DNA of 64,000 nucleotides from Phytoactinopolyspora limicola (GTDB lineage Bacteria; Actinomycetota; Actinomycetes; Jiangellales; Jiangellaceae): assembly GCF_011320225.1 (NCBI RefSeq), contig NZ_JAAOEN010000001.1:849652-913651 (forward strand), given 5' to 3'. Position numbers and translations under genes: made by a program. Positions 9,895 through 39,130 of the stretch are shown piece after piece. How positions within the stretch are numbered: position 1 is the first letter of the stretch; every line of letters starts with the position of its first letter. A model generated the notes under the pieces. It was not told the origin of the DNA. It ran no database searches and saw only the letters and a program-made list of their open reading frames with translations.

Positions 9895-11295
9895 TCAGGC
9901 AGCGCGCAACGAGGTCAGGAAGCTCTCCGCCCACCGCGTAATGTCATTGCTGAGCACTCGCTCACGCAGCAGCTTCATGCGCTGGGTGGCTTCGGCCGCA
10001 TCGAGTCGCATCGCGGCTAGCAGCGTGCGCTTTAGTCCGTCGATGTCGTGCGGGTTGACCAGGAACGCGCCGTCGCCGAGTTCGTCGGCGGCGCCGGCGA
10101 ACTCGGACAACACCAAGGCTCCGCCGAGGTCGGTGCGGGCCGCGACGTACTCTTTGGCCACGAGGTTCATGCCGTCGCGCAGCGGCGTGACGACCATGAC
10201 GTCGGCGGCCCGCAGCAGCGACACGAGCTCGACGCGTTCATACGAGGAGTGCAGGTAGTGCACGGCCGGCTGGCCAATGGTGCCGTACTCGCCGTTCATC
10301 CGGCCGACCTGTAGCTCGATATCGTCGCGCAGCGTCTGATACGCCTCGACCCGTTCTCGGCTGGGGGTGGCCACCTGCACCATGACGGCTTCGTCCGGGG
10401 TGAGGTCGCCCGCGGCCAGTAGCTCTCCGAACGCCTTGAGGCGATGGCCGATCCCCTTCGTGTAATCCAGCCGGTCGACGCCCAGCAGCATGTGTTTCGG
10501 AGCGCCCACCTCTTCGCGGATGTGGTCGCTACGTGCCAGCACGTCGGGATCGGAGACGAGGTCGGTGATCTCGCTGACGTCGATCGAGATCGGGAACGAC
10601 TGCACGTGGACCGTCCGCCCATCGGCGGTGCGGACCTGGCGGCTCTCAGCGGTGGCGTCGGTATAACGTTCGGCCAGGCTGGCGAAGTTTTCGGCCGCGC
10701 CTTCTCGCTGGAAACCCACGAGATCCGCGCCGAGTAGCCCTTCCAAGATCTGGCGCCGCCAGGGGAGCTGCGCGAACAGCTCGGTGGGCGGGAACGGGAT
10801 GTGTAGGAAGAAGCCGATCTTCAGGTCCGGGCGCAGGCGGCGCAGAATGGCGGGGACCAGTTGTAGCTGATAGTCCTGCACGAAAACGACTGCTTCTTCG
10901 GCGGCGACGCCCGCGACGGCGTGGGCGAAGCGGTCGTTCACCCGGCGGTAGGCATCCCACCACTCCCGGTGATACTCAGGCGCCACGATCACGTCGTGAT
11001 AGAGCGGCCACAGCGTGGCATTGGAGAAACCTTCGTAGTACTCGCCGACCTCCTGGGCGGACAGTGGGACCGCGACGAGGTCCATGTCGTCCGTGGAGAA
11101 CGGATCTGGTGCGTCATCAGGGGATCCGGTCCAGCCGACCCACGCTCCTTCGACGGAACGCATCACCGGTGCCAGTGCGGTGACCAATCCGCCCGGACTA
11201 CGGCGCCAGGTGGCCGAACCGTCTATTGAGACGACTCGATCCACTGGGAGCCGGTTGGCGACGACGACGAAGCTACTCTTTCCGATATCTGCCAC
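9895..11295 (-). CDS. otsA: Trehalose-6-phosphate synthase (GT20)
   Basis: 466 residues, full length for OtsA. It joins a nucleoside-diphosphate glucose and glucose-6-phosphate to make trehalose-6-phosphate in the cytosol. Visible GT20 signatures are '[11 protein letters not shown]' at the N terminus, '[20 protein letters not shown]', '[20 protein letters not shown]' in the nucleotide-binding half and '[17 protein letters not shown]' near the end. The phosphatase gene otsB lies 1.1 kb away on the opposite strand with DUF3263 and LytR_C genes between. Trehalose acts as osmoprotectant and carbon store; no specific stress operator is obvious in the short divergent region. Confidence 0.97.
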
Positions 11296-11437
11296 GTGGC
11301 CTCCTCGTCCGTTCTACGGTAGCGGGCGATGCGCCGATATGGTGCATCGGTACCGATCTTGATTGATTCCCGGCCGGCCGCCGTATACGCCTGAATCTGG
11401 CTCAGCAGCTGTGTCGAACGTGCCCACGGAGGCGCTT

Positions 11438-11749
11438 GTGCTTACCATGGCCGGCATGGAAGCAGTAGCCGACCGGTCGGCGAACGTCCCGTCCTCGGGT
11501 TCGCTCGATGAGCGCGAACGCGAGATCTTGGACTTCGAGCGACAGTGGTGGAAGTACGCTGGCTCCAAAGAGCAGGGCATCCACGAACGTTTCGACATGA
11601 CCGCTACCCGCTACTACCAGGTGCTCAACGCCCTCATCGACCGGCCTGAGGCGCTGGCCCACGCCCCCATGTTGGTCAAGCGGCTCCGCCGCCTGCGGTC
11701 GTCGCGCACCCGCGCCAGATCCGCGCGACGATTGGCAGCCGAGGCCTGA
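11438..11749 (+). CDS. DUF3263 family protein, probable small DNA-binding protein
   Basis: 103 residues. The GTG at 11438 has GGAGG 5 nt upstream; the frame is open further upstream but without a start of comparable quality. The conserved core is 'LDEREREILDFERQWWKYAG' followed by 'SKEQGIHERFDMTATRYYQV' and 'NALIDRPEALAHAPMLVKRL', ending in a strongly basic tail (RRLRSSRTRARSARRLAAEA). The 'F-x-M-(T/S)-x-TRYYQ-x-LN' segment looks like a recognition helix, so DUF3263 is probably a small HTH protein. In actinobacteria it is commonly found beside otsA and the LytR_C gene, as here. Confidence 0.92.
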   Translation: MLTMAGMEAVADRSANVPSSGSLDEREREILDFERQWWKYAGSKEQGIHERFDMTATRYYQVLNALIDRPEALAHAPMLVKRLRRLRSSRTRARSARRLAAEA

Positions 11750-11849
11750 GACACGAGACCGCGATGAACGCCACGCCGGGTACCGGCTCAGACGGTAACC
11801 TCGCCGACGTGACGTCGGCGAGGCTCGGTTGGTGTCTGCTGGGGATTCG

Positions 11850-12443
11850 GTGACTATGGGTGAACGTCTTGGCCGTATCTGGCCGTCCCTGGTAGCTCTG
11901 CTCGGCACTGTGGGCGTGGTGCTCGTGTTGCTGTTCGTCTTCGGCGACAACACCGGCGACACTCCGGACGACGATCTCGGTGACATCGTGGTCGGGGGTG
12001 GCGACGACACCTCAACCGATGGCGCCGAGGAAGGTGAGGGCGGCCCCACCGATCAGCCGACCGACACGCCGAACGACGGGGGCGACGAAGGCGACGAGGA
12101 CGCGGGCGACGACACCAGTGAAGAGCCGTCCACGGAGGTCACGACGGCTCCGCCGGAACTGCGTAGCCCGGTCGGCATCGCCAACCAGACCTCGGTAGCC
12201 GACCTTGAGCTGCGGGCCCGGGAGCGGCTCGAAGCTGGTGGTTGGGAGGTCGCTGCCACCAGTGGGTTCAACGGCAACGTCCCAGAAACCACGGTGTACT
12301 ACCCGCCGGGTATGGAGGAGTCGGCGCGGGCGTTGTCCCGGCAGTTCCCCGAGATCAGCCGGGTAGAGCCCACGTTCGAGGGCATCAACCAGAGCCGGCT
12401 CGTCATCATCCTCGTGGACGACTATGCCGATGTCGATGGCTGA
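11850..12443 (+). CDS. Membrane-anchored LytR C-terminal domain protein
   Basis: 197 residues. Starts GTG 11850 and ATG 11856 both follow GGGGA; the former is used here. A single membrane helix (VALLGTVGVVLVLLFVFG) is followed by an acidic, disordered stalk (about 85 residues of Asp, Glu, Gly and Thr). The LytR_C domain occupies the last 80 residues: 'VGIANQTSVADLELRARERL', then 'GWEVAATSGFNGNVPETTVY' and 'VIILVDDYADVDG'. LytR_C domains occur in cell-envelope proteins; here it is alone without the LCP catalytic domain. Its end overlaps otsB by 20 nt. Confidence 0.9.
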   Translation: MTMGERLGRIWPSLVALLGTVGVVLVLLFVFGDNTGDTPDDDLGDIVVGGGDDTSTDGAEEGEGGPTDQPTDTPNDGGDEGDEDAGDDTSEEPSTEVTTAPPELRSPVGIANQTSVADLELRARERLEAGGWEVAATSGFNGNVPETTVYYPPGMEESARALSRQFPEISRVEPTFEGINQSRLVIILVDDYADVDG

Positions 12444-13245
12444 TGGCGATGGGCGCATAGCCGCCCTTCGGTCCGCCCTCGAGCCGCATCTGCCCCACAC
12501 ACTCGTCGCGCTCGATTTCGACGGGGTGCTGGCGCCCATCGTGGACCGTCCGGAAGACGCCCGTGCCCTACCCGGAACGGCGAGGCTGCTGGCCAGAATT
12601 GCGGAGCGGGTGGCGCGGGTCGCGATCGTCACTGGTCGCCCCGCGGCCGACGCCGTTCGGCTGGGGGAGCTGGCCGATGTTCCTGGACTGGTGGTGCTGG
12701 GCCACTACGGCCTACAGCGGTGGTCGAGTGGCCGGCTGGAGACCCCGGATGTGGTCCGTGGGGTGACGTTGGCGCGGCCTCGGCTGGCCGCCTTGGTCGA
12801 GCGCACGTCGGGTGTAACGCTGGAGGACAAGCACCATTCGCTGGCGGTACATACCCGCCGCGCGGTAGACCCTCAGGGTGTTCTCGACGCGCTGCACGAG
12901 GAGGTCGCCACGATCGCGGCCGAGAGTGGGCTTCAGCTCACGCCGGGCCGGTTTGTGCTGGAGGTACGCCCAGCGGGTATCGACAAAGGTGTGGCGGTCC
13001 GGCAGTTGGTCGACGAGGTGGGGGCTCGTGCCGTTGTCTACGCCGGCGACGACCTCGGTGACTTGCCTGCGGTCGACGCCGTCCGGCAGTTGGCGACATC
13101 GGGGGTCACCGGCGTGGTGATCTGTAGCGACACCAACGAGTCTGTCCCCGGCCTACGTGAACGCGCCGACGTGGTGGTGCCTGGCCCGGCCGGGGTGCGG
13201 GATGCGCTCGACGTGCTGGTGCTCTCTGAACCAGGCGGAGCTTGA
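12424..13245 (+). CDS. otsB: Trehalose-6-phosphate phosphatase (HAD superfamily)
   Basis: 273 residues. Hydrolyses trehalose-6-phosphate to trehalose, completing the OtsAB pathway. HAD motif I is 'LVALDFDGVLAPIV' (DxD), motif II 'VAIVTGRPA', a cap region includes 'GVTLEDKHHSLAVHTRRA', and motif IV is 'VVYAGDDLGDLPAVDAV'. 'GYDKG'-type substrate contact appears as 'AGIDKGVAVRQL'. ATG codons at 12424, 12430 and 12436 are all possible starts; the gene begins inside the end of the LytR_C gene, so translation is probably coupled to it. Confidence 0.95.
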   Translation: MPMSMADGDGRIAALRSALEPHLPHTLVALDFDGVLAPIVDRPEDARALPGTARLLARIAERVARVAIVTGRPAADAVRLGELADVPGLVVLGHYGLQRWSSGRLETPDVVRGVTLARPRLAALVERTSGVTLEDKHHSLAVHTRRAVDPQGVLDALHEEVATIAAESGLQLTPGRFVLEVRPAGIDKGVAVRQLVDEVGARAVVYAGDDLGDLPAVDAVRQLATSGVTGVVICSDTNESVPGLRERADVVVPGPAGVRDALDVLVLSEPGGA

Positions 13246-13288: not shown

Positions 13289-13326
13289 GACCACATTGTA
13301 AGACAGTTTTGTCTCATAATATGGTC
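13289..13326 (+). promoter_or_regulatory. Promoter with a 38-bp operator-like dyad upstream of the SAM riboswitch
   Basis: GACCACATT (13289-13297) mirrors AATATGGTC (13318-13326), and AGACA (13301-13305) mirrors TGTCT (13310-13314), all about one axis at 13307.5. A -35-like TTGTAA (13296-13301) and -10-like TAATAT (13317-13322) with a 15-bp spacer lie inside the dyad, so a bound protein would block transcription. The inner AAGAC-N6-GTCTC resembles the TAGAC-N6-GTCTA site of the corynebacterial sulfur regulator McbR. The assignment to a specific regulator is inference. Confidence 0.5.
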
Positions 13327-13370
13327 GATCCTGCGGGTGTTGACGCTATTCCGCTTACGCTTCTCGCAGT

Positions 13371-13478
13371 ACTCATCCAGAGGGGCAGAGGGACCGGCCC
13401 GGTGAAGCCCCGGCAACCACTCGCAATCCAGCGAGTTCGGTGCCAAGTCCGGCCCGCTGGATTGCGGGGAAGATGAGG
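13371..13478 (+). promoter_or_regulatory. SAM riboswitch (SAM-I clan)
   Basis: The aptamer is recognisable from its conserved core. P1 is CTCATC (13372-13377) with GATGAG (13472-13477). After it come AGAGGGGCAGAGGGACCGGC and CCGGTGAAGCCCCGGCAACC, then a P3 hairpin (CTCGCAATCCAGCGAG) and GGTGCCAAGTCC, then a P4 stem and GGGGAAGATGAGG. These match the SAM-I consensus (GGGACnGGCCC, GAnnCCnGGCAACC, GGUGCCAAnUCC). It ends 17 nt before the downstream ATG; the ribosome site GAGGAGG overlaps the 3' side of P1, so ligand binding probably sequesters the ribosome site and represses translation when SAM is high. Confidence 0.93.
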
Positions 13479-13494
13479 AGGTTACTCCGAGATC

Positions 13495-14772
13495 ATGACC
13501 ATCACCGACACGCCCGCCGCGACGAGTTCCACCACGTCGGCACCCGACCTCGGCCGGGCTACCCACCTGTCATGTCGTGAGTGCGCGGCCACCATCGAGC
13601 TTGGGCCCCACTACGCATGTATGGAGTGCTTCGGCCCGCTGGAGGTGGCGTACGACTACGGGCACATCACCCGGGAAAGCATCGAGGCCGGGCCGCGGTC
13701 GATCTGGCGCTACAAAGACCTGCTGCCGGTCCCGGCTGACGTCGCCTCGACGCCGAACACCGAACCCGGGCTGACCCCGCTGCTTCGGGCCGACAATCTC
13801 GCCCGCGAGTTGGGTCTCAAGACCTTGTGGGTCAAGAACGACGCGGCCAACCCAACACACTCGTTCAAGGACCGAGTCGTCGCGGTGGCGCTGGCGGCCG
13901 CCCGTGAACTCGGCTTCACGGTCTTGGCGTGCCCCTCCACGGGCAACCTGGCCAATGCGGTAGCCGCCGCGGCCGCCCGGGCCGGCATCCGTAGCTTCGT
14001 CTTCATTCCGAGCAACCTCGAGCAGCAGAAGGTCGTCACCAGCGCGGTGTACGGCACCACGTTGGTGGCCGTCGAAGGTAACTACGACGACGTCAACCGG
14101 CTCGCATCCGAGCTGGCCGGGCAACATGAGGATTGGGCGTTCGTCAACGTCAACGTCCGGCCGTATTACGCCGAGGGGTCGAAGACACTCGGCTATGAGG
14201 TCGCCGAGCAACTCGGTTGGCGGCTACCACGCCAGGTGGTGATCCCGGTGGCCAGCGGCGCTCAACTGGTCAAGGTCGACAAAGCCTTCGCGGAGCTGGT
14301 CCAGCTTGGTCTCGTCGAGGGTGAGGCGCCGATCATCTTCGGGGCACAGGCCGCCGGCTGCTCGCCGGTCTCGGCCGCTTTCAAAGCCGGGCACGACGTC
14401 GTCCGCCCGGTGCGCCCGGACACGATCGCGAAGTCGCTGGCCATCGGCAACCCAGCTGACGGCCCGTATGTCCTGGACGTCGCCCGTCGCACGGGTGGTG
14501 CGGTCGAGGATGTGACCGACGACGAGGTCGTCGAAGGTATCCGGCTACTAGCCCGGACCGAGGGGGTCTTCGCCGAGACCGCCGGCGGGGTGACCGTCGC
14601 TGTTCTGGCGAAGTTGCTGCGCGACGGGCTGCTCGATCCAGACGCCGAGACGGTGATCTTCAACACTGGTGAGGGTCTGAAGACCCTCGACGCGGTCGCG
14701 CCCGTCGTCGGGCCGGCCGGGACCATCGCACCAACAACCGAGGCATTCCATACCCTCGTCCCGGAGGCTTAG
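13495..14772 (+). CDS. thrC: Threonine synthase family PLP enzyme with N-terminal zinc ribbon
   Basis: 425 residues. Fold-type II PLP enzyme; the annotated reaction is O-phosphohomoserine to threonine plus phosphate. An N-terminal zinc ribbon carries Cys27, Cys30, Cys42 and Cys45 ('CRECAATI', 'CMEC'). The PLP Lys is K125 in 'NPTHSFKDRVV', with the phosphate-binding loop 'ACPSTGNLANAVAAAAARAG'. Substrate-side motifs 'PYYAEGSKTLGYEVAEQLGW' and 'PVASGAQLVKV' follow. The gene lies under a SAM riboswitch and 8 nt ahead of a CysO-like sulfur carrier, an odd setting for threonine synthesis. Because CysM, another fold-type II enzyme, uses CysO thiocarboxylate and a phosphorylated amino acid, this enzyme could instead make homocysteine from O-phosphohomoserine. 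That is a hypothesis; sequence alone supports the ThrC family. Confidence 0.93.
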   Translation: MTITDTPAATSSTTSAPDLGRATHLSCRECAATIELGPHYACMECFGPLEVAYDYGHITRESIEAGPRSIWRYKDLLPVPADVASTPNTEPGLTPLLRADNLARELGLKTLWVKNDAANPTHSFKDRVVAVALAAARELGFTVLACPSTGNLANAVAAAAARAGIRSFVFIPSNLEQQKVVTSAVYGTTLVAVEGNYDDVNRLASELAGQHEDWAFVNVNVRPYYAEGSKTLGYEVAEQLGWRLPRQVVIPVASGAQLVKVDKAFAELVQLGLVEGEAPIIFGAQAAGCSPVSAAFKAGHDVVRPVRPDTIAKSLAIGNPADGPYVLDVARRTGGAVEDVTDDEVVEGIRLLARTEGVFAETAGGVTVAVLAKLLRDGLLDPDAETVIFNTGEGLKTLDAVAPVVGPAGTIAPTTEAFHTLVPEA

Positions 14773-14780
14773 AGAAGACC

Positions 14781-15068
14781 ATGAGTGTTGCCGTACGAGT
14801 CCCCACCATCCTGCGTACTTACACCAAGGGGGAAGCCGACGTCAGCGTCGATGTCGCCGACGACGCCGTGCTGGCTAACGTCGTTGATGCACTCGAAGCC
14901 GCCTACCCCGGCATCAAGGCGCGGATTCTCGACGACACCGGTGAGATCCGGCGGTTCGTCAACGTCTACGTGAACGACGACGACGTACGCTTCGCCTCCG
15001 GCCTCAAGACCCCTACGCCGGCCGGCACCAAGGTGGCCGTCATCCCTGCTGTCGCCGGTGGCTGTTAA
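14781..15068 (+). CDS. CysO/MoaD-like sulfur carrier protein with Gly-Gly-Cys end
   Basis: 95 residues with a β-grasp fold. It aligns end to end with mycobacterial CysO: 'VRVPTILRTYTKGE' at the start, 'LEAAYPGIKARILDD', 'IRRFVNVYVNDDDVRFASGL' and the end 'VAVIPAVAGGC'. Carriers of this class are adenylated and thiocarboxylated at a terminal Gly-Gly. Here one Cys follows the di-Gly (residues 93-95), so a JAMM-type peptidase (Mec+ in Mycobacterium, HcyD or QbsD elsewhere) should trim it first; none is encoded in the window. Eight nucleotides separate it from thrC, so both share the SAM riboswitch. Likely role: sulfur donor in amino-acid synthesis. Confidence 0.93.
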   Translation: MSVAVRVPTILRTYTKGEADVSVDVADDAVLANVVDALEAAYPGIKARILDDTGEIRRFVNVYVNDDDVRFASGLKTPTPAGTKVAVIPAVAGGC

Positions 15069-15215: not shown

Positions 15216-15417
15216 GCACCTGATCGCTACCACGAAAAAGATCAGGTGCTAGCGACGACGATTTCGCCCGACCGGCGCCGCGCTGTGTCACCTGATCGCC
15301 TCCAGCATGCGGACGCCGAACGATCAGATGCGCAAACAGTGCTGACGCGTCGCGTGGAGCATCTGATCGTCCGATGTCGACATGCGGGTGCCCACATGTT
15401 GGAGCCGATCAGGTGCA
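15216..15417. repeat. Six GATCAGRTGC motifs in three inverted pairs
   Basis: The 10-bp motif occurs at 15216-15225 (reverse), 15240-15249, 15288-15297 (reverse), 15322-15331, 15359-15368 (reverse) and 15407-15416, strictly alternating in orientation. The first pair makes a perfect hairpin with a 14-nt loop. The same motif forms a larger cluster at 38625-39123. The gene-free stretch 15112-15628 otherwise holds no gene I can support; frames on the minus strand near 15420-15560 look partly protein-like (LVDEPLLRVSGDEPASALRQ) and might be a decayed gene. Confidence 0.85.
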
Positions 15418-34943: not shown

Positions 34944-35078
34944 CGGCTCCTGGTCATGGGTGCGGCGTTCGCACACCACCGGTGCCCCTGTTGGGGGCGC
35001 CGCCGCGACCTGCCCGATTTCGCCGGCAGAAAACCCATTGCCCGGCATGGCCGTCGAGGTCTAACGTTTTCAGTACAC

Positions 35079-35285
35079 GGAAAGGAGGTGGTCCAAGAAT
35101 ATGAATGGCTATTGGACTCGTGAGGTGGCTGCTCGTTAGCCGCCTGCTCGACGCAGGACCTGGGGTGACACCCGGTTCGCCGGCCGGTCGGCTGGCAATC
35201 TAGAGCAGTCACCCGGCCCGTGGGCTTCCAGGATCAGTCCGCCTGGACCGCGTATTCGCGGAAGTAGCCCACGGGCTGTCCCTTT
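35079..35285 (+). ncRNA. Candidate structured RNA with super-Shine-Dalgarno and tiny ORF
   Basis: The 392-bp spacer between the thioesterase-like gene and pdxH holds an apparent transcription unit. GGAAAGGAGGTGGTCCA (35079-35095) is complementary to the 3' end of 16S rRNA over 17 positions, two of them G-U. A 12-codon ORF starts at 35101. At the end, CCCGTGGGCT (35217-35226) pairs with AGCCCACGGG (35266-35275), extended by TCC/GGA, enclosing two small hairpins (GTCC-GCCT-GGAC at 35237-35248 and CGCG-TATT-CGCG at 35249-35260, the last base shared with the outer stem). CCCTTTTCC follows (35280-35288), as in a terminator. No promoter could be assigned with confidence. I infer a regulatory or leader-type RNA. 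Confidence 0.5.
35101..35139 (+). CDS. 12-residue ORF behind a super-Shine-Dalgarno
   Basis: ATG AAT GGC TAT TGG ACT CGT GAG GTG GCT GCT CGT TAG encodes MNGYWTREVAAR. The ribosome site AGGAGG (35083-35088) is embedded in a 17-nt match to the anti-Shine-Dalgarno region, 12 nt from the ATG, far stronger than any other in the window. I have an impression of similar W-T-R-E-V peptides in other actinobacteria but cannot verify it. It could be a leader peptide that senses ribosome state, or a ribosome-sequestering element. Confidence 0.5.
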   Translation: MNGYWTREVAAR

Positions 35286-38624: not shown

Positions 38625-39130
38625 GCACCTGATCTCCGTTTGTGCGCCTGATCGTTTATGTGGCGACGATCAGGTGCGCCGCGGGTGGGCGATAGCGGGG
38701 TAGCGGCGGACCGGTGTGCATCTGATCGCGTCCCGTGATGTGGACGCGCGGCGATCAGATGTATGGTCGGCGTTCGTGGGGCTGGTTGTGCATCTGATCG
38801 GTAGCGGGTCTGGTGAGCGGATCCGTGACAGGTCCGGCAAGTGATCGGTGACGGGGTCTGGCGCGGCCTTATGGTCGCGTCGTTGTTGGGCGTGTGCACC
38901 TCGTCGTCTGTACTTCGCGCGGGGGACGCGATGTCTGGTGATCAGATGCATCAACTGACCGGCGAGCCGCGTTCGCGCATCTGATCGGTGGGCGTCCGCA
39001 CTCTGAGACGGAATCGGATGCGCCACACCGTGCCGTTGCCCGCCGTTGATACACCTGATCGCCCCAGGGAAAAAGATCAGGTGACAAAACGGAGATCAGG
39101 TGCACAAAGCGGAGATCAGGTGCACAAAGC
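38625..39130. repeat. Cluster of 12 GATCAGRTGC-type motifs
   Basis: Copies (10 bp, one or two variant bases) begin at 38625, 38644, 38668, 38718, 38753, 38790, 38940, 38977, 39051, 39075, 39094 and 39114. The first ten mostly alternate orientation, giving hairpins such as 38644/38668 and 39051/39075. The last two lie in a 20-bp direct repeat, GGAGATCAGGTGCACAAAGC (39091-39110 and 39111-39130). No open frame in the stretch is convincing. The same motif occurs six times at 15216-15416; I did not see it in the intervening genes. Confidence 0.85.

Follow-up and report, generated by a model that had tools for sequence, protein, structure and literature searches.

The window, by which we mean the whole stretch of 64,000 nucleotides of Phytoactinopolyspora limicola DNA analysed here, very probably carries a metM-metO operon under the control of a SAM riboswitch. 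A complete SAM-I aptamer precedes the gene of a threonine-synthase-like (ThrC-like) enzyme, the metM candidate, which is followed closely by the gene of a small sulfur carrier, the metO candidate. The pair most likely makes homocysteine for methionine, a product that would explain why SAM controls a 'threonine synthase'. The gene order, the aptamer, the protein families and their co-occurrence among genomes were observed in this analysis; the reaction we infer from the likeness of the enzyme to Streptomyces MetM. A preliminary description of this DNA had suggested that the ThrC-like enzyme uses O-phosphohomoserine and a carrier thiocarboxylate to make homocysteine. This is very probably right, as the published MetM/MetO route and our genome counts agree with it.

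The window is Jiangellaceae DNA. Its assembly comprises 6.59 Mb, with a genome completeness of 99.45%, and Phytoactinopolyspora halophila (87%) and Jiangella ureilytica (89%) are among the named organisms whose enzyme is most similar. The region 5′ of the operon (9895–13245) contains the trehalose genes otsA (minus strand) and otsB (plus strand), with DUF3263 and LytR_C genes in between. Elsewhere in the window, a match to the actinobacterial sRNA Ms_IGR-5 was observed at 35075–35284 (96.5 bits). The 10-mer GATCAGGTGC and its near copies on both strands form clusters at 15216–15416 and 38625–39123; there are 24 matches in the window with at most one mismatch compared to 5.6 expected, and none of 100 shuffles reached 24.

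A SAM-I riboswitch overlaps the ribosome site of metM

The SAM-I riboswitch aptamer (RF00162) was identified by cmscan on the plus strand at 13370–13479, with a score of 92.4 bits (E-value 7.8e-21) exceeding the gathering score of 44.4. The Infernal match spans model positions 1–108 of 108, in line with the complete SAM-I-clan aptamer noticed earlier in the sequence. No further RF00162 match was found in the 6.59-Mb assembly, leaving this aptamer as the sole one detected, and control loci of the same genome (thrC, metY, mec-cysO-cysM and moeZ, each including ca. 1.5 kb of flanking DNA) were likewise free of RF00162. The 3′ strand of P1, GAUGAGGA at 13472–13479, overlaps the ribosome site GAGGAGG (13475–13481), sharing positions 13475–13479 with it, as had been proposed. 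The combined element at 13472–13481 of the plus strand (GAUGAGGAGG), delineated from the sequence and the consensus structure, is the presumed translational platform; the ATG of metM follows at 13495, 15 nt past the aptamer end.

A total of 110 out of 192 metM loci were examined (the 30 best and 80 hand-picked among the matches listed). RF00162 was detected upstream of metM and on the same strand in every one of the 110, with the lowest scores, 46.8–49.1 bits, at L127, L132 and L135. The distance from the aptamer end to the start codon, as chosen by script, is at most 20 nt in 109 loci, leaving no space for a terminator, and a Shine-Dalgarno-like sequence, defined by a loose pattern, overlaps the P1 3′ strand in 97. 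A simple scan of the window between 13240 and 15300 revealed no terminator-like sites, and a promoter scan found no sigma-70-like promoter on the plus strand 5′ of the aptamer. This layout of aptamer and ribosome site suggests that SAM control is presumably exerted at translation, with SAM repressing metM by masking the ribosome site.

A Shine-Dalgarno hairpin 3′ of P1, predicted when the window was folded to minimum energy, was also considered as a conserved platform and rejected after analysis of 98 of the 110 loci, 20% of which had a 4-pair stem vs 4 or more pairs in 13% of shuffles. We do not count a signal this close to shuffle level as a conserved platform. In two loci, matches to the c-di-AMP riboswitch were noticed on the opposite strand, about 0.8–0.9 kb past the metM end (L103:3083–3224 and L112:3024–3160).

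An McbR-like palindrome is located 5′ of the aptamer

Alignment and a mismatch scan revealed a palindrome, TGTAAGAC-N6-GTCTCATA (TGTAAGACAGTTTTGTCTCATA), on the plus strand at 13297–13318, which from its sequence is a possible second control site. Its core, AGAC-N6-GTCT, is equal to the core of TAGAC-N6-GTCTA, described as the Corynebacterium operator of McbR, a regulator of sulfur metabolism (PMC2723105). The sequence TGTGAGAC-N6-GTCTCACA was found with 1–4 mismatches in 19 out of 20 Jiangellaceae loci, 73–79 nt 5′ of the aptamer, and the match in the 20th locus (L049) was at shuffle level. Outside Jiangellaceae, matches had 5–10 mismatches, as did shuffles (90 loci, minus 20 whose aptamer start the script missed; L055 was scored over the wrong stretch).

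When 22 Jiangellaceae genomes were scanned allowing at most 2 mismatches, 21 places were found in 11 of them, 10 of the places being at metM as judged by position. Six non-metM places represent one recurring sequence, which a scan of three of these loci placed within 23S rRNA; this 22-mer is identical in L334, in the two copies of the host genome (within 600 identical bases) and in the copy of genome G102. The five remaining places are single occurrences. With 10 of the 21 places at metM and six accounted for by one recurring sequence, no wider regulon is apparent at this level of mismatch.

MetM is related to threonine synthase and differs from it at fixed positions

The metM candidate (13495–14772, plus strand) encodes a zinc-ribbon ThrC-like PLP enzyme of fold type II, 425 aa long, as follows from profile matches, alignments and a structural model. 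The protein scores 235.5 bits with PALP and 274 bits with TIGR00260 (thrC; cut-off 167.1), compared to 43.4 bits with the NCBIfam CysM model (cut-off 413) and 75 bits with the cysteate synthase model TIGR03844, far below the cut-off of 324.9. Cysteines C27, C30, C42 and C45 of the N-terminal zinc ribbon (codons within 13573–13629, plus strand) are invariant in 17 MetM sequences, and each is conserved in at least 90% of a second set of 40. The PLP lysine K125 (codon 13867–13869, plus strand) belongs to an SFKDR motif aligned with SFKDR of housekeeping ThrC and is invariant in both sets. The reading of this gene as a zinc-ribbon threonine synthase homologue with Lys125 as its PLP lysine therefore holds.

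The predicted model of MetM (mean pLDDT 87.5) has threonine synthases as its nearest folds; the top match is Arabidopsis ThrC (2c2b; Z 42.1, rmsd 2.4 over 372 residues, with the N-terminal region partly covered). A modelled ThrC fold is no proof of the reaction catalysed. Together with the TIGR00260 score above the cut-off, and with the threonine synthase activity reported for a Microcystis homologue (PMC12172450), these folds would also suit a second threonine synthase, with SAM control adjusting how much O-phosphohomoserine goes to threonine and how much to methionine, and with the neighbouring carrier serving CysM. We regard this possibility as very unlikely for reasons that become apparent from the genome survey below.

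MetM was compared with 29 ThrC sequences of the class, two out of 31 being left out. The two groups have 89 fixed positions in common, SFKDR and STGN included, and 71 positions are fixed differently, of which 15 are gaps in ThrC and come mostly from the zinc ribbon. Within the ThrC loop GNAGN, GNA is replaced by ASG in MetM; EPASA is replaced by ETAGG, and the stretch SVNPxRIEGQKT by NVRPYYAEGSKT. With these 71 fixed differences, MetM departs from the positions fixed in housekeeping ThrC of the class.

In five loci that probably come from Streptomyces (L114, L115, L117, L121 and L130; group f19/g24), MetM is 66–68% identical and both the aptamer and metO are present. An enzyme with 79% identity was found in a record titled Spirochaetaceae MAG CAN_BIN15 (L225); the spirochaete label is probably wrong, the likely counterpart being G097:C150, of the window's class.

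MetM co-occurs with a second ThrC and often with the absence of MetX

Following the checks that the preliminary description had proposed, we looked in the host genome for a second thrC, for metX/metY and for a JAMM (Mec+) gene, and all were present. The second thrC, on contig C12, scores 301.9 bits vs 274.7 bits for MetM, both over the cut-off. Genes metY and metX are located side by side on contig C24, making the MetM route an extra one here; their coexistence is a point against the need for MetM in this genome. The single JAMM match of the genome belongs to a mec-cysO-cysM cluster on contig C37 and is thus found beside cysO, not metO. Since CysM and CysO are together on that contig next to the JAMM gene, the CysM-CysO pairing does not extend to the window enzyme. 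Contig C12 also encodes a MoeZ-type protein that, like MoeZR, combines a ThiF with a rhodanese domain.

We next consider the distribution of these genes in 296 genomes of the window's class, bearing in mind that counts across genomes ignore shared ancestry. At the thresholds used (E-value 1e-100 or better for MetM, 1e-55 for TIGR00260 and 1e-80 for MetX), a close relative of MetM was detected in 192 out of 296 genomes. Two ThrC-type genes were counted in 187 of the MetM genomes, the five exceptions being G015, G070, G130, G160 and G246 (the last 99% complete), and in none of the 104 genomes without a MetM match. MetX was not found in 108/192 MetM genomes vs 11/104 others (Fisher test, P-value ~1e-15, kinship ignored), and MetM thus seems to replace the acylation route. 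Within the window's genus, MetX was found in the host genome (G000) and G217 and was not found in G102, G192 and G200. A JAMM match was detected in 188/192 MetM genomes vs 45/104 others. Judging by these counts, MetM goes together with sulfur-carrier chemistry and methionine supply, while ThrC is retained, and genomes with MetM often lack the acylation route. The 11 out of 104 genomes having neither MetM nor MetX imply that further routes exist, as judged by a search for MetX.

These data argue against the second threonine synthase considered above: a full ThrC is encoded in the same genome, the pairing of two ThrC-type genes is the rule in MetM genomes, and the co-occurrence of MetM with MetX absence points to methionine. 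The carrier would hardly be needed by CysM, which has its own CysO beside it. Besides, SAM would act in the wrong direction if it repressed an enzyme draining O-phosphohomoserine away from methionine. We therefore retain homocysteine synthesis as the most likely function. The survey suggests that many actinobacterial 'threonine synthase' genes preceded by a SAM riboswitch encode homocysteine synthases, which would alter the reading of methionine supply across much of the class.

MetO and its C-terminal Gly-Gly-Cys

The metO candidate (14781–15068, plus strand) starts 8 nt after the metM stop codon and encodes a CysO-like sulfur carrier of 95 aa, with scores of 48.2 bits for ThiS and 63.9 bits for SAMP1 (cut-off 60). 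Among solved structures, its best relatives are chain C of 3dwg (M. tuberculosis CysO) and chain B of 4n6e (a member of the ThiS/MoaD family), and it is 48% identical to CysO of the same genome. The protein ends with AVAGG-Cys (codons GGT GGC TGT TAA), a Cys following the presumptive thiocarboxylate-bearing Gly-Gly (Gly-Gly-Cys at 15057–15065, plus strand). The CysO-like β-grasp carrier with a VAGGC end, noticed at first from the letters, is thus confirmed.

Gene metO adjoins metM in 90 of the 110 loci. In the 20 others, all bearing the aptamer (L050–L055, L058, L060–L067, L095, L127, L132, L135 and L138), metO was not found within the 0.9–1.5 kb fetched downstream of metM, and in named Pseudonocardiaceae loci it was likewise not found within 2 kb in 6 out of 6 cases, with a SAM-box-like motif present. 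The carrier partnership of MetM is thus not strict, and the loci that lack metO would be accommodated if MetM took free sulfide or another nucleophile, MetO being a mere helper or CysO substituting for it in many species. We consider this unlikely given the adjacency of metO in the large majority of loci; since the search covered the neighbourhood only, the remaining ones may use CysO or a metO located elsewhere. A thiocarboxylated carrier as the sulfur donor of MetM remains our preferred reading.

Tails of the 90 adjacent MetO proteins comprise 69 GG, 19 GGC, 1 GGA and 1 GGAG. On the MetM tree (90 rows), the GGC tail requires 11–12 changes, at least 8 of them by well-supported branches, and thus comes and goes, its distribution being nonetheless more clustered than that of shuffles (mean of 17.5 changes). 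In the host genus, it was found in three examined species and not in one. A second, named set of 80 loci, which overlaps the first in some contigs (e.g., L210 is L036), contains 67 with metO, whose tails are 55 GG, 4 GGC and 8 others. A strong preference for Cys as the extra residue was considered on the basis of the first set (19 of 21 extended tails) and abandoned with the second (4 of 12), in which the near-exclusive Cys only partly holds.

The tails of JAMM-linked CysO were surveyed at 71 loci (that of the host genome, the 30 best JAMM matches and 40 hand-picked); 69 were readable, one of the two left out having no cysO in reach and the other being cut. Eighteen CysO proteins end with GG, and 51 have 1–20 residues past Gly-Gly, the first of which is mostly Ala, Ser, Met or Gly. 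GGC occurs once among these extended tails, and those of L154 and L169 end with Gly-Gly again. The CysO of the host genome ends with GGA. Extended CysO (G000:C37:47424–48300, loci L009 and L014, and L140–L209) looks precursor-like and occurs in many actinobacteria. Among extended tails, GGC is thus found in 19/21 and 4/12 MetO vs 1/51 CysO (Fisher test, P-values 3e-14 and 0.004, kinship ignored). A tandem duplication of CTG, which turns GGCTGA into GGCTGCTGA by adding 3 nt, could yield the GGC tail without selection, and we do not claim selection for Cys.

A link between JAMM presence and MetO tail type was tried as well: all 21 genomes with extended MetO in the first set have a JAMM match, but with 188 of 192 MetM genomes having one this comparison is powerless. 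Our literature search, weak because most subscription journals were outside its reach, found no description of a Gly-Gly-Cys carrier tail.

As encoded, the GGC end of MetO equals the CysO-Cys adduct that is hydrolysed by Mec+, which makes trimming of MetO by the single JAMM protein a natural guess. MetO-GGC could, more tentatively, be a gene-encoded copy of this adduct, locked until the JAMM protease of the cysteine route opens it, with one JAMM protein responsible for cysteine release and for the maturation of both CysO and MetO; we put this forward as a possibility and rate it below even chances. If true, a locked MetO would wire methionine supply to the cysteine pathway. The tail survey suggests a possible link, open to direct test, of a shared JAMM protease to two sulfur carriers.

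Model of SAM-controlled homocysteine synthesis

According to the model we favour, the last Cys of MetO would be removed by the single JAMM protease of the genome, and the Gly-Gly end exposed in this way would be activated to a C-terminal thiocarboxylate by the MoeZ-type enzyme. MetM, related to ThrC and altered in its active site, would then swap the phosphate of O-phospho-L-homoserine for the sulfur of MetO, producing L-homocysteine for methionine and SAM. When plentiful, SAM would bind the leader RNA, P1 would form and mask the ribosome site, and translation would decrease. In the host genome, this route would run beside metX-metY and the separate CysM-CysO route to cysteine. Besides the reaction itself, we infer the identity of the activator, the translational repression and the trimming of MetO by the single JAMM protease.

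Comparison with known systems

In Streptomyces albulus, MetM is a homocysteine synthase acting on O-phosphohomoserine (Hasebe et al. 2024, AEM e01247-24, via PMC12172450); metO belongs to a sulfur-carrier family and a SAM riboswitch is located before metM, according to PMC12172450. As far as that account goes, the window operon has the ThrC-like enzyme, the carrier gene metO and the upstream SAM riboswitch in common with S. albulus, and differs in its Jiangellaceae host, in the coexistence with metX-metY and in the McbR-like palindrome upstream. MetO of the window has an extra C-terminal Cys, which may be a further difference. In the work of Hasebe and colleagues, thiocarboxylated MetO is reportedly the sulfur donor, and metO is said to be downstream of metM. 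The homocysteine idea of the preliminary description was thus already in print for relatives.

A cyanobacterial (Microcystis) homologue that shares 51.6% identity with MetM of S. albulus reportedly forms threonine and also deaminates it, with no clear in vivo MetM function (PMC12172450); the wider MetM family is therefore possibly not uniform. In M. tuberculosis, MoeZR activates CysO and Mec+ hydrolyses the CysO-cysteine adduct, as described in PMC3227635. The CysM/CysO/Mec+ system has the PLP enzyme, the O-phospho amino acid and the carrier thiocarboxylate in common with the model proposed for the window operon. In contrast to CysM, MetM belongs to the ThrC branch and would use a four-carbon substrate, and its genome contains a separate mec-cysO-cysM cluster.

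In the HcyS/HcyD system of Wolinella, a protein thiocarboxylate is used to make homocysteine, and its precursor bears a residue past Gly-Gly; the enzyme is an O-acetylhomoserine sulfhydrylase, and a ThrC homologue is not known to take part. The carrier residue after Gly-Gly is thus the likeness and the sulfhydrylase, as opposed to ThrC-like MetM, the difference; by analogy with HcyS, a trimming protease for MetO is plausible. Cysteate synthase, a PLP enzyme of the ThrC branch that joins O-phosphoserine with a sulfur nucleophile, resembles MetM in branch and in its presumed sulfur nucleophile, although the TIGR03844 score of the window enzyme is far under the cut-off. We conclude that the window operon is a good new example of the 2024 Streptomyces operon and no new system; what may be new here is smaller in scale, namely the MetO tail with one additional Cys and the McbR-like palindrome before the aptamer.
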